A DNA stretch of 64,000 nt from Halobacteriovoraceae bacterium (GTDB lineage: Bacteria; Bdellovibrionota; Bacteriovoracia; Bacteriovoracales; Bacteriovoracaceae): positions 1 to 64,000 of the forward strand of contig PASP01000010.1 of NCBI GenBank assembly GCA_002712005.1. Direction: 5' to 3'. The notes under the pieces are model-generated. The model did not search any database. It worked only from the letters and a program-made list of their open reading frames with translations, and was not told the origin of the DNA. A program made the position numbers and the translations under genes. Shown one piece after another: positions 29,210 through 34,161 of this stretch (position 1 is the stretch's first letter; the number at the start of each line of letters is the position of its first letter).

Positions 29210-30364
29210 ATGAAAGTCGTACAATCTGTCTTATTGGGAGCCTTCCTCTGTGTTTCAACGATTCAGGCATCTTCTTTAAATGATGAAGCTAGTGAAGCAC
29301 CAGCTCCAAGGATATTGAGAACTATGGAAGAAAGAGCAGAGTTTATAGAAGAATTATGGCTTTCTTTTGAGTCTTCAGACGGTCTTTCACAAAAGCAAAA
29401 CGAACAAGTTAAAAAGCTTAAACTCTATCAATTTCCTCATGCCCAATCTTTAAAACTTCTCTTAATGAAGGCATCTTTGAATATTGAGATCTCTCAAAAT
29501 GAAGTCGGCTTTATGAATAGCCCGGGGGCGTGGAATGAAGAAAGTTTAGTTGAGTACTCCAAGTTAGAAAAAAGAATTGAAGAGGCTTCCATTGAAATCG
29601 AACAACCTCTTCAATCAAAGACTAAAGAAGTGACTGCGACAAATGATCGTTGGAGTAAAGAAGAGATAAAAGAATTGATTACCTTTGAGCCGAAGTGGAG
29701 GCTCTTTGGAAAGAATGAATACCGTAATGTGCCCACTCTCTATGTCTTCTGTAGAGAAGATCGTAACTATCCTTGCCTGATGATTATGAAAGATAAAGAA
29801 GGGAAAGTTGTTCGTGAGAAGAATGGACAAATTTGGAGTCAGAAGAAATTGGCCCTCTCTGGGAGAGGTCTTAAGTATAATGAAGTTAACGGAAATACTC
29901 CTCAAGGACTCTTTACTATTGATTCGGTTATGCCAAAAGCCGATCGTCGCTTTGTATATGGAAAATATAGAAGAATGAAGCTTAACTTTGTAGAGGCCTC
30001 AAAAGATGAGAAAGAGCTCTTACGCTACATTCCTGAAGAGCTTCAGCATTTGAACTTTTGGAAAGAATCTGTTGTCGCTAGAGATATGGGCAGAGACCTT
30101 TTCCGCATCCATGGTGTAGGAATAAAGAATATATTCAGAAATACCACTTATTATCCTTTCATTCCTACAGCCGGTTGTATTGCTTCTATAGAAGGTAAGT
30201 ACGACGGAAAGAGGTATGCTGATCAACGTGAACTCTTGGATCAATTTATGATTGCAATGGGAATTGAGCCTACTTATGAAAACGAGACACGTGTAAAAGG
30301 TCTACTTTACGTAGTTAATATCGACGATACCAATGCACCTGTAGAACTAGGTGATCTTTTCTAA
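29210..30364 (+). CDS. L,D-transpeptidase-like secreted protein
   Basis: A 384-aa exported protein (signal MKVVQSVLLGAFLCVSTIQAS). The C-terminal half has marks of a YkuD fold: NTPQGLFTIDSV (the family's TPxGxF), His 301 in RIHGVG and a Cys-containing motif PTAGCIAS with Cys 323, corresponding to [ST]HGC in canonical enzymes. The residue before Gly-Cys is Ala, not His, and the His-Cys spacing (22) is longer than usual. YkuD enzymes form 3-3 peptidoglycan cross-links or attach proteins to peptidoglycan. Many predatory deltaproteobacteria encode several. The N-terminal 140 residues are helical and charged, function unknown. Confidence 0.75.
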   Translation: MKVVQSVLLGAFLCVSTIQASSLNDEASEAPAPRILRTMEERAEFIEELWLSFESSDGLSQKQNEQVKKLKLYQFPHAQSLKLLLMKASLNIEISQNEVGFMNSPGAWNEESLVEYSKLEKRIEEASIEIEQPLQSKTKEVTATNDRWSKEEIKELITFEPKWRLFGKNEYRNVPTLYVFCREDRNYPCLMIMKDKEGKVVREKNGQIWSQKKLALSGRGLKYNEVNGNTPQGLFTIDSVMPKADRRFVYGKYRRMKLNFVEASKDEKELLRYIPEELQHLNFWKESVVARDMGRDLFRIHGVGIKNIFRNTTYYPFIPTAGCIASIEGKYDGKRYADQRELLDQFMIAMGIEPTYENETRVKGLLYVVNIDDTNAPVELGDLF

Positions 30365-30383: not shown

Positions 30384-31442
30384 TCAGTAGTTCCCATATC
30401 CTCCATAGGGGTCGGTGGGAATAAGCTGACACATGGAGATGAGTTCTCTGAGATCAATCATTCTTTCCGCCCAGTATCGATCGGATTTGAAGTGAGGAAA
30501 TGCCGTTTCAAAAGAGGGGTCTGCCCATCTCTTTCCAATCCATGCATCGAAATGAATGGTTCGCAGTCCTCTTAGGGGCTCGATAAGGCGTAATTGCTGA
30601 TAGGGAAATTCATTCCAAAGTTCGTAAGCCTCTAGGAAAGTATCTTTATCTCTTTGAGCATAGTCATCTCTTCCAGGAATAATCGTCCATAAGTCTTGCA
30701 CAACGGGTCCTCGAACAAAATCATCGAAGTCGATAAAAAAGAATCCATCATTTTCGTTATAAAGAATATTTCCTTTATGGCAGTCGCCATGAATTCTTTG
30801 GATAGCTAAGTTTTTAAATAGTGGAGTGATAGTCGTTATAAATTGTTTAACCAGTGATTCATAGGACTCCTTATAATTTTCAGGAAGATGATTATCTTCT
30901 AAAACACTTTTTAAATTCTGGTGCCCATAATTATCAATATTGAGTTCTACACGGTGTTGGCCTTTCCTCTTTTGTCCAATAAGATGAAGTCTTCCCAAGA
31001 GTCGACCCAGTTGCCTCAATTGATCTTCATTAAATTCATCAGGGTTGCGACCTCCTTTTTTAGGAAAGAGGCAATAAAAGAGTTCTCCATCATCTGTTTC
31101 AAAAATACTTTCACCATCAAAGCGAAGGGGAGCGATTGCTGGAAGTTCTGCATCTTGCAGATCAAAGAGGAATTGGTGTTCATCTTTAATTTGATCTTTT
31201 GACCATCGGCCAGGTCTATAGAACTTAGCGATAACGAAATTCTCGCTTATAGTTTTAGCCTTTGGATTATCAATTTCAATTTCATAAACTCGATTTTCAA
31301 GAGAATTAAGGGGGAGGCATCTCCCTGTGGTTTTTAGCCCTAATTGATCGATATATTTTAATATAGAGACAGGGTCGAGTTGATAAAAAAACTGGGTTTT
31401 TCCAGCTCCCCATGCATCTACTGCTTTATTTTCTTCATTCAT
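30384..31442 (-). CDS. srkA: Stress-response protein kinase SrkA (YihE)
   Basis: A 352-aa eukaryotic-like Ser/Thr kinase of the SrkA/RdoA group (choline-kinase fold). Catalytic loop HGDCHKGNILY and metal-binding DFDDFVRGP are intact, as is the family C-terminus with AWIGKRWADPSF. The frame extends to a TTG at 31454, but the ATG at 31442 (NEENKAVD) has GGAG 6 bases upstream and is chosen. In E. coli SrkA counters stress-induced cell death and lies with dsbA; here its neighbours are unrelated. Confidence 0.92.
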   Translation of the reverse strand: MNEENKAVDAWGAGKTQFFYQLDPVSILKYIDQLGLKTTGRCLPLNSLENRVYEIEIDNPKAKTISENFVIAKFYRPGRWSKDQIKDEHQFLFDLQDAELPAIAPLRFDGESIFETDDGELFYCLFPKKGGRNPDEFNEDQLRQLGRLLGRLHLIGQKRKGQHRVELNIDNYGHQNLKSVLEDNHLPENYKESYESLVKQFITTITPLFKNLAIQRIHGDCHKGNILYNENDGFFFIDFDDFVRGPVVQDLWTIIPGRDDYAQRDKDTFLEAYELWNEFPYQQLRLIEPLRGLRTIHFDAWIGKRWADPSFETAFPHFKSDRYWAERMIDLRELISMCQLIPTDPYGGYGNY

Positions 31443-31551
31443 ATGGCGCTCCAAATGGAAGTATAACTTAAAAGTTTCACCTTAATAATGGGGAGAGTTT
31501 CTTTTTTATTCTTTGGAGATAGAGAAAGATAGTTGAGAAAGAGAGTTGGGT

Positions 31552-31636: not shown

Positions 31637-33493
31637 ATGACGAGATTAAAGAAAAATCATAGTAGAGAGATAAGATGGGATGAAGACTTCAGGCCTTCTA
31701 AGAACTCTTATTCAAAAATCTCTAAAATTAATGGAAAACATCCTTTGCAAACTGAGACCCTTGATTCTTTTGTAGCGTATCGAGCAAGAAAGCGTCATGG
31801 AGGGAAAGTTATTGTATTTAATTATGAATTAGCAAGAGAGATGGGGCTGATTTCTAAGAGTCATCCAAACGTTATGACAAAGGAGCTGGAAAAGGAGCTT
31901 CTCGATACTTTTGCACTGGTTATTATTAATGAGTATGACCAAATAAATGATATTCAGTTTAAAAAAGAAGATATTAAACCTCATTTCTATATGGCCACTC
32001 GCTACTTACAACTTCAGCATCCCAATAAACAGGGGAAGACCTCTGGTGATGGGCGAAGTATTTGGAATGGTATCCATCGTTATAAAGGAAAATCTTGGGA
32101 TATCTCGAGTTGTGGAACGGGGGCAACATGCTTATCACCGGCCACTCATATTCAAAATAAGTACTTTCAAACTGGTGATCCAAGTATTTCCTATGGATGT
32201 GGCTATGCCGAAGTCGATGAGGGGATAGGTTCGCTTATCTTTTCAGAAATTCTTCACAAGAATAAAGTGAAAACTGAGCGCGTTCTTGGAGTCCTTCAAT
32301 TTGAAGATGGTTACGCCATAACGATCCGAGTCCACGACAATCTCTTACGTCCAAGTCATCTATTCAATCATTTAAAACAAGGTAACTACGATGCCCTCAA
32401 GGCCATGGTTAATTATTATATTAATCGCCAAGAGGAAAATGGAGTGTGGGATAATCTACCAAAATCTGAAAAAGGGCGTTGGGATTATTTCTTAAAGAAG
32501 CAAGTTGATGTCTTTGCTCGAACGGCGGCAAAGTTTGAAGATGAATATATATTTTGTTGGCTAGATTGGGATGGTGACAATGTACTGATGGATGGGGGAA
32601 TTATTGACTATGGTTCCGTTAGACAGTTTGGACTCTTCCATAGTGAATACCGTTTTGACGATAGTGATCGCTTCTCTACATCCATCATTGAACAAAAGCA
32701 GAAGGCCAAATATACGGCCCAAACCTTTTACCAATTAGTAGACTACTTAAAAACAAAAGATAAGAAGCCTATTAAAGAATTTTCCAAAGGTGAGTGGGCT
32801 GAAGACTTTGAACAGACATTTTGGAGATGTAAATACAAGAATCTCCTCTACAAGATGGGGATTTCTAGTGAGTGTGCTAAAGAAATCTTGGAAAGAGATA
32901 GAGCTCTTGTCGAACAATTTCAAAAGGTTTTCTTCTACTTCGAGAAAGCTAAGTCTCATCGAGGTCCGAAGAAGGTCAATGATGGAATTACTTGGGATGC
33001 CATTTATTGCATGAGGGATATATTAAGAGAAATACCTCAAATTTATTTATCACGTGAAGATCAGTTGGAGCGTGATGAGTTTATGGAAATTATTAAGTCC
33101 ACTTATGCTACTAAGAAGGATCTTGAGCTTACAGGTTATAAGAAAAAGAAGATTGATGAGTTTCAAAGTCTTTACAAAGATATTGTCGTTCTTGCATCCT
33201 CTATAGAAAAAGTAACAGTGAATAGAATGTTACTTAATATGAGCATGCGCTCTTCTATTATTAATAAATATGATCGAGTTACAGGTGATTCTATTTCTAC
33301 AATTATAGAAATATTAATGAAGAAGATAGAAGAGATGAAACCTGACAAGCTATATGAGCTTCTCTATAATTTTTCAGAATATCAAAATTTAAACCCTGAT
33401 GGAGAACGTATTCCAAAATCGGACCGTTCAGAAAGATCTCAAATGATGAGAGGCTTTTTAAAAGTTGTAAGAGAATATCGAGAGGGGCTGTGA
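31637..33493 (+). CDS. Divergent SelO/YdiU-like pseudokinase (possible AMPylase)
   Basis: A 618-aa protein that can be lined up by eye with SelO, the inverted-ATP pseudokinase that AMPylates proteins. Shared landmarks, in order: GDGR (137-140), SEIL with Glu 204, RVHDNLLR with Arg 231 and Arg 238 seven apart as in SelO, ARTAAKF, and DNVLMDGGIIDYG with Asp 314 and Asp 324 ten apart as in SelO. The Lys of the SelO HLKGAG segment is not in place; the matching stretch is WDISSCG. The C-terminal 250 residues are helical and lack the SelO C-terminal Cys motif. Its TGA overlaps the next gene's GTG by four bases. Start ATG; AGGAGGTG lies 13 bases upstream. Confidence 0.6.
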   Translation: MTRLKKNHSREIRWDEDFRPSKNSYSKISKINGKHPLQTETLDSFVAYRARKRHGGKVIVFNYELAREMGLISKSHPNVMTKELEKELLDTFALVIINEYDQINDIQFKKEDIKPHFYMATRYLQLQHPNKQGKTSGDGRSIWNGIHRYKGKSWDISSCGTGATCLSPATHIQNKYFQTGDPSISYGCGYAEVDEGIGSLIFSEILHKNKVKTERVLGVLQFEDGYAITIRVHDNLLRPSHLFNHLKQGNYDALKAMVNYYINRQEENGVWDNLPKSEKGRWDYFLKKQVDVFARTAAKFEDEYIFCWLDWDGDNVLMDGGIIDYGSVRQFGLFHSEYRFDDSDRFSTSIIEQKQKAKYTAQTFYQLVDYLKTKDKKPIKEFSKGEWAEDFEQTFWRCKYKNLLYKMGISSECAKEILERDRALVEQFQKVFFYFEKAKSHRGPKKVNDGITWDAIYCMRDILREIPQIYLSREDQLERDEFMEIIKSTYATKKDLELTGYKKKKIDEFQSLYKDIVVLASSIEKVTVNRMLLNMSMRSSIINKYDRVTGDSISTIIEILMKKIEEMKPDKLYELLYNFSEYQNLNPDGERIPKSDRSERSQMMRGFLKVVREYREGL

Positions 33494-34161
33494 AGCTAGT
33501 TTTCTATAGTGGTGGTGATGAAGAGGATAATGAAAATGTTGATCAGGCCTGTTTAGATCTGATTGATAACCCTAATCCCACTTTTGTTTTCATTCCCAGT
33601 TCAAGCTATGACGGAGAAGCTGAATTCCATGAGTTTGTGGAATCTTGGCAAGATTATGGCATCACCAGGTTTATATACTTTCCAGTTGATATTCCTCAAG
33701 ATCGCGTTCTTATGAAAGAAGTCTTTCAATCTGATTTAATTCACTTAGGTGGAGGAAATACCTTCTATTTCCTAAAATACCTACGTCAGTATGGATATCT
33801 CGAGTTTCTTCGTGAATATGTTCTAATGGGGAAAGTTCTCACAGGCCTAAGTGCAGGGGCCATTATGATGACTCCGAATATAAAGACGGCAAGTTATCCA
33901 AGCTTTGACCGGGATGAAAATGAAGAAGGAGTTCGTAACCTAAAGGCTTTGGGATTGGTTCGTTTTGAATTCTTTCCTCACTACAAGAATTCTCTTCGAT
34001 ATGATCGCGAGCTTTTGGCCAAAAGTAAGAATCTACGCCATCCTTTATTTGCTCTTCCCGATGGAAGCGGCCTTATTAAAAATGAAGAGCAATTAAGTTT
34101 TATAGGTAAAGCCTGGGCTTTTAAAAATGGAACTAAGATTCTTATTAATTCAGAATCTTAG
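33490..34161 (+). CDS. Peptidase S51 (dipeptidase E/cyanophycinase-like) family protein
   Basis: A 223-aa cytoplasmic protein with the S51 fold: LIHLGGGNTFYFLKYL is the substrate loop and GLSAGAIMM holds the catalytic Ser in the nucleophile elbow. A His/Glu-rich region (FEFFPHYKNS) follows, as in PepE. PepE cleaves Asp-X dipeptides; relatives degrade cyanophycin dipeptides. The GTG start lies inside the preceding stop (GTGA), so it should be translated with the SelO-like protein. No start other than GTG fits. Confidence 0.88.
   Translation: MKLVFYSGGDEEDNENVDQACLDLIDNPNPTFVFIPSSSYDGEAEFHEFVESWQDYGITRFIYFPVDIPQDRVLMKEVFQSDLIHLGGGNTFYFLKYLRQYGYLEFLREYVLMGKVLTGLSAGAIMMTPNIKTASYPSFDRDENEEGVRNLKALGLVRFEFFPHYKNSLRYDRELLAKSKNLRHPLFALPDGSGLIKNEEQLSFIGKAWAFKNGTKILINSES

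Follow-up and report, generated by a model that had tools for sequence, protein, structure and literature searches.

Predatory-type bacteria of the Bdellovibrionota carry an undescribed relative of SelO without the hallmark Lys; in one large branch it shares its message with a presumably aspartate-specific S51-type peptidase, which suggests a new two-enzyme nucleotide or peptide chemistry. The pair described here lies in a stretch of 64,000 nucleotides (hereafter the window) from contig PASP01000010.1 of a Halobacteriovoraceae bacterium. The first gene encodes a 618-aa protein which is a SelO homologue belonging to a separate clade, without the beta3 Lys of SelO, and the pairing of this gene with that of a 223-aa S51 peptidase is real and widely conserved, but not obligatory. 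The clade is new within a known superfamily, and so is its gene association; no description of the Lys-less SelO-like family or of the S51 pair was found in the literature.

SelO is among the most conserved of the pseudokinases. Its AMPylation, in which AMP passes from ATP to Ser/Thr/Tyr, its UMPylation and its NAD hydrolysis remain under study, as do its partners. A clade without the Lys but with the metal and phosphate residues offers a test of what the SelO Lys is for, and the search for the substrate of a SelO-like enzyme is narrowed by a translationally coupled partner, a hydrolase whose chemistry is known. Moreover, the SelO-like family is found in most of the Bdellovibrionota genomes examined, yet the window protein carries no Pfam name.

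Organisation of the locus

The features of the locus are listed in Table 1. The initial annotation had placed two open reading frames with a GTGA overlap in this region; both were confirmed, and the overlap is kept in most homologues. The first ~20 residues of the SelO-like protein are not conserved and were modelled with low confidence, so its true start is possibly further in. A Shine-Dalgarno-like run within the last SelO-like codons was found in 51/58 S51-paired genes as against 8/24 others, and three of these eight are actually paired with a truncated S51 gene. With such a run at the gene end, conservation of the C-terminal Arg-Glu-Gly may be in part a ribosome-binding-site effect.

Table 1. 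Features of the SelO-like/S51 locus, in window coordinates.
Feature	Position	Strand	Remarks
Lys-less SelO-like gene, 618 aa	31637..33493	+	kinase-like/SelO fold and a C-terminal helical region exceeding that of SelO
S51 peptidase gene (PepE/MccG-like), 223 aa	33490..34161	+	triad Ser121-His164-Asp191
GTGA, S51 start codon sharing the SelO-like stop codon	33490..33493	+	GTGA or ATGA in most homologues
GAGGGG, Shine-Dalgarno-like	33482..33487	+	within codons for the conserved C-terminal Arg-Glu-Gly-Leu; mainly where S51 follows
GDGR codons, G137-R140	32045..32056	+	invariant; R140 = E. coli SelO R87
D155-T161 codons	32099..32119	+	within WDISSCGTG block; C159 = SelO beta3 Lys position
E204 codon	32246..32248	+	equivalent of SelO alphaC Glu
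R231 to R238 codons	32327..32350	+	equivalent of SelO gamma-phosphate Arg pair
D310-G326 codons, D-W-D-G-D-N...D-Y-G	32564..32614	+	metal-binding D314/N315 and D324

Upstream of the pair and divergent from it (window 30384-31454, minus strand) is a SrkA/YihE-type stress-response kinase gene (NCBIfam NF008738), which was found in only 9/84 loci and is therefore placed outside the module. A 384-aa exported protein is encoded at window positions 29210-30364 (plus strand); it has a catalytic stretch resembling L,D-transpeptidases (YkuD-type) and matches no Pfam or NCBIfam family.

Homology and fold of the SelO-like protein

Searched as a single sequence, the 618-aa protein had no match over the cut-off in Pfam, and matched NCBIfam YdiU at E=9.3e-6, far under the cut-off of that database. 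A PDB search with the single sequence returned nothing real, and the analysis turned to profiles and folds. The PF02696 cut-off was passed by several orthologues in other genomes, and 11/53 aligned family members matched PF02696 with E up to 0.01. Comparison of the family with 30 canonical SelO sequences of the same phylum using HHalign gave a probability of 98.9% (E=1.3e-17, 425 columns). The AlphaFold model of the protein, built from 53 sequences, has a mean pLDDT of 90.7 and a pTM of 0.90. When this model was searched against the PDB using Foldseek, nine matches had E<0.001, all of them SelO/YdiU (E about 1e-11), with TM-scores by target length of 0.65-0.71. NCBIfam, orthologue, HHalign and Foldseek results all bear out the divergent SelO identity that had been proposed. 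Two outcomes had been set beforehand as refuting the annotation, namely the lack of a SelO match and fold, and the lack of conservation of the pair; a SelO match, a SelO fold and a conserved pair were found instead.

The family forms one clade apart from SelO on a starred branch, in a quick tree with long branches and an unsure root. A canonical SelO (490-aa type) is also encoded in the window genome, on another contig. The separate clade and the presence of both proteins in one genome argue that the SelO-like protein is not simply a diverged SelO. Some genomes of the same genus (L119, L121) have a different SelO of about 565 aa with a QGN loop, which replaces the 490-aa type. A third SelO-like group was seen in the genomes of two relatives (L122:5404-7236, minus strand; L123:5687-8032, plus strand), where S51 is not adjacent. 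Its members keep the beta3 Lys and GDGR, show Gly at the position of the catalytic-loop Asp, and carry signal-peptide-like N-termini.

A viral origin of the SelO-like gene was rejected, there being no viral relative and only weak viral fold matches, the top ones including NiRAN-containing coronavirus fragments. Plasmid relatives were distant archaeal SelO records alone (about 22% identity).

Active site residues

The initial annotation rested on the order and spacing of SelO active site residues. In an alignment with E. coli SelO all of the residues named proved correct, and the DN-x8-DYG spacing is exact: E135, R170 and R177 correspond to E204, R231 and R238, whilst D246, N247 and D256 correspond to D314, N315 and D324. 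In P. syringae SelO, Lys113, Glu136, Arg176 and Arg183 are involved in gamma-phosphate handling, and Asn253 and Asp262 are metal ligands (PMC8097203). GDGR, R231, R238, D314, N315 and D324 are invariant in 47/47 family representatives across the phylum, and the alphaC position is Glu in 42/47 and Asp in 3/47.

The Lys itself is out of place, as had been noted, with C159 at the position of K107. This holds for the whole family: the beta3 column contains no Lys in the 47 representatives (C27, R15, S4, V1) and reads C58, S4, R3, Q1, V1 in a Bacteriovoracaceae-centred set, whereas the Lys is present in 12/12 canonical SelO proteins compared. Further traits of the family are an invariant R329 and K/R at 247. 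D312 is also invariant, with Asn at the SelO equivalent. An insertion carrying K/R175 replaces the SelO YSRxGDGR stretch, and this residue is a candidate substitute for the missing Lys. Judged from the residues, the loss of the Lys would be expected to alter nucleotide handling; a loss of catalysis is another possible consequence.

The annotated difference at the C-terminus was upheld. The helical region is longer, and the Cys tail (CSS), reported as necessary for NAD hydrolysis by SelO (PMC13391479), is absent from SelO-like proteins, which end in REGL, REGI, EDI and similar. An NADase role was set aside because this tail is missing.

The S51 partner

The assignment of the second gene to PepE-like S51 peptidases is secure. 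PF03575 matches the 223-aa protein with E=1.5e-29, and its model (pLDDT 95.9) has peptidase E as its top Foldseek matches. Alignment with E. coli PepE shows an intact triad of S121, H164 and D191, the last of which aligns with PepE Glu192 and is invariant in alignment A2. Asp as the third triad residue is a feature of MccG and its S51 clade V, and MccG cleaves isoaspartyl-nucleotides, whilst E. coli PepE, with its Glu triad, gives no protection from McC (PMC9239234). However, protection from one McC survives the D196E mutation in MccG, and two basal clade V enzymes are not protective (PMC9239234), so the Asp is no proof of nucleotide specificity. The Asp-type triad of the S51 partner is thus taken as a lead only towards aspartyl-nucleotide cleavage.

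Distribution and conservation of the pair

The SelO-like gene was found in 209/369 Bdellovibrionota genomes, some of them complete genomes from a Bdellovibrio-like genus, and homologues from the genome scan came from Bacteriovoracaceae, Halobacteriovorax, Bdellovibrionales and similar groups. Occurrence outside Bdellovibrionota was covered by a single-protein pattern scan and by the plasmid and viral searches. S51 lies directly downstream on the same strand in 97/112 mapped SelO-like genes, with a gap fitting the 4-nt stop/start overlap in about 77 of these 97, in agreement with the sequences read. A further 3/112, from two other families, have S51 upstream on the opposite strand, two of them directly adjacent. 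The pair is kept across about 45-70% protein identity whilst the genes flanking it vary; among fetched loci S51 is a neighbour in 61/84, and the next commonest neighbour gene in 28/84.

A strong match to this S51 clade was obtained in 118 genomes, of which 116 also contain the SelO-like gene (Fisher p = 3e-34, relatedness being ignored). In several S51-positive genomes (families f11 and f24) the SelO-like gene is present but unlinked. About 3 changes of arrangement were counted on the tree, and hence there are few independent events. The pairing with S51, unfamiliar for SelO when first annotated, stands as a widely conserved one, but it does not hold throughout: about 93 of the 209 genomes that carry the SelO-like gene, those of the Bdellovibrio-like branch included, lack a close S51 partner. 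The SelO-like protein therefore works alone there, and the peptidase is better seen as an accessory (eraser or detoxifying) factor than as an obligatory one. Published SelO neighbourhood studies, in the sections available, report ABC transport, redox and other genes and do not name an S51 peptidase.

In the Bdellovibrio-like branch an ATP-grasp-like family adjoins the SelO-like gene (L161:4627-5823, L124:8102-9145 and others; alignment A3), and the block around them contains AhpC-like, exonuclease III-like, epimerase and hydroxylase-like genes. This gene was considered as a third member of the module and rejected, since it belongs to a wider syntenic block, was absent from the window genome and from almost all of the S51-linked genomes searched, and also occurs in genomes that lack the SelO-like gene.

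Proposed function and alternatives

Drawing an activity, a transferred group, an action of the S51 enzyme on the product and a direction of the pathway from the homology, fold, residue pattern, pairing and co-occurrence, we tentatively propose nucleotide transfer by the SelO-like protein to an aspartate-bearing acceptor, with cleavage of the product by the S51 enzyme, a reading which is possible though short of probable. The locus would form a two-gene module. Its first member would be a nucleotidyltransferase of the SelO clade; binding of metal-ATP in the flipped SelO mode is probable even without the beta3 Lys, because the gamma-phosphate Args and the metal-binding Asn/Asp are retained. It would probably attach AMP or another NMP to an acceptor unlike those of SelO, the likeliest being a small molecule, peptide or protein site that bears an aspartate. 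The S51 hydrolase, with its MccG-like Asp triad, would probably cleave the aspartyl product, or a toxic form arising from its breakdown, and so might serve as eraser, recycler or safety valve. That the Lys-less clade and its dedicated hydrolase respectively make and cleave an aspartyl-nucleotide (or a nucleotidylated peptide), as a so far undescribed system in many Bacteriovoracaceae-type genomes, is more doubtful. If true, the S51 enzyme would be the first case of a dedicated partner or eraser whose gene adjoins that of a SelO-type enzyme.

Other chemistries may be envisaged. The SelO-like protein might form an acyl-adenylate and ligate an amino acid or peptide, with the S51 enzyme removing or trimming the addition. 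S51 enzymes cleave Asp-Xaa bonds and the isopeptide bonds of cyanophycin (PMC9239234), the kinase-fold glutamylase SidJ is a precedent (PMC12599244), the MchC subfamily acts in microcin maturation (PMC3281104) and may ligate likewise, and the catalytic loop is unusually acidic (D310/D312/D314). However, neighbourhood counts show neither a small peptide substrate gene nor an MchD acyltransferase by the pair, and the ATP-grasp gene of the Bdellovibrio-like copies is largely absent where S51 is linked, as described above, which makes ligation unlikely. The acceptor might also be the S51 peptidase itself, its activity toggled by AMPylation or UMPylation and the overlap fixing the ratio of enzyme to target. 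Both the translational coupling of the genes and the known protein AMPylation by SelO (PMC8097203) agree with this, but the persistence of the SelO-like gene in many genomes without this S51 gene, together with an S51 sequence that gives no reason for one modified residue, renders it distinctly unlikely.

A pseudoenzyme acting as a nucleotide-sensing scaffold that regulates the peptidase would account for the loss of the beta3 Lys throughout, with unrelated replacements (C, R, S, V, Q), and for the altered HGV-type catalytic loop. Yet a mere scaffold would hardly need the metal-binding Asp-Asn and Asp, both Args and the GDGR Arg, given their invariance in 47/47, and the gene exists without S51 in many genomes; we judge this rather unlikely. 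Finally, the small number of arrangement changes on the tree could mean that the housekeeping functions of the two genes are unrelated and that descent alone keeps them adjacent. This is very unlikely, as the pair stays whilst flanking genes vary, a second, opposite-strand arrangement exists and co-occurrence persists in the families where the genes are unlinked.

Comparison with known systems

With SelO/YdiU (PF02696) the SelO-like family has in common the fold, GDGR, the alphaC Glu, the Arg pair, the D-N metal site and the DYG Asp, but its members have neither the beta3 Lys nor the C-terminal Cys tail. The SelO HGVMNTDN loop is F-C-W-x-D-W-D-G-D-N in this family, an insertion of the form LSPA...K/R...TGD...YGxG stands against the SelO YSRxGDGR, and the protein is about 125 residues longer. 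SidJ shares a kinase-like fold in a non-phosphorylating use; it is not among the best fold matches listed for the SelO-like model and, unlike the Lys-less family, retains a Lys at its ATP site, K367, and makes use of it (PMC12599244). MchC/MceJ is likewise a distant SelO relative with peptide chemistry (PMC3281104), and is set apart here by gene neighbourhood, neither a microcin gene nor an MchD (HlyC-like) acyltransferase being a recurrent neighbour in the neighbourhood counts. The S51 partner shares its fold and Ser-His-acid triad with peptidase E, MccG and cyanophycinase (PF03575), and the third triad Asp with MccG, a likeness of that one triad residue. It differs from all three in forming a group of its own that is associated with the SelO-like gene.
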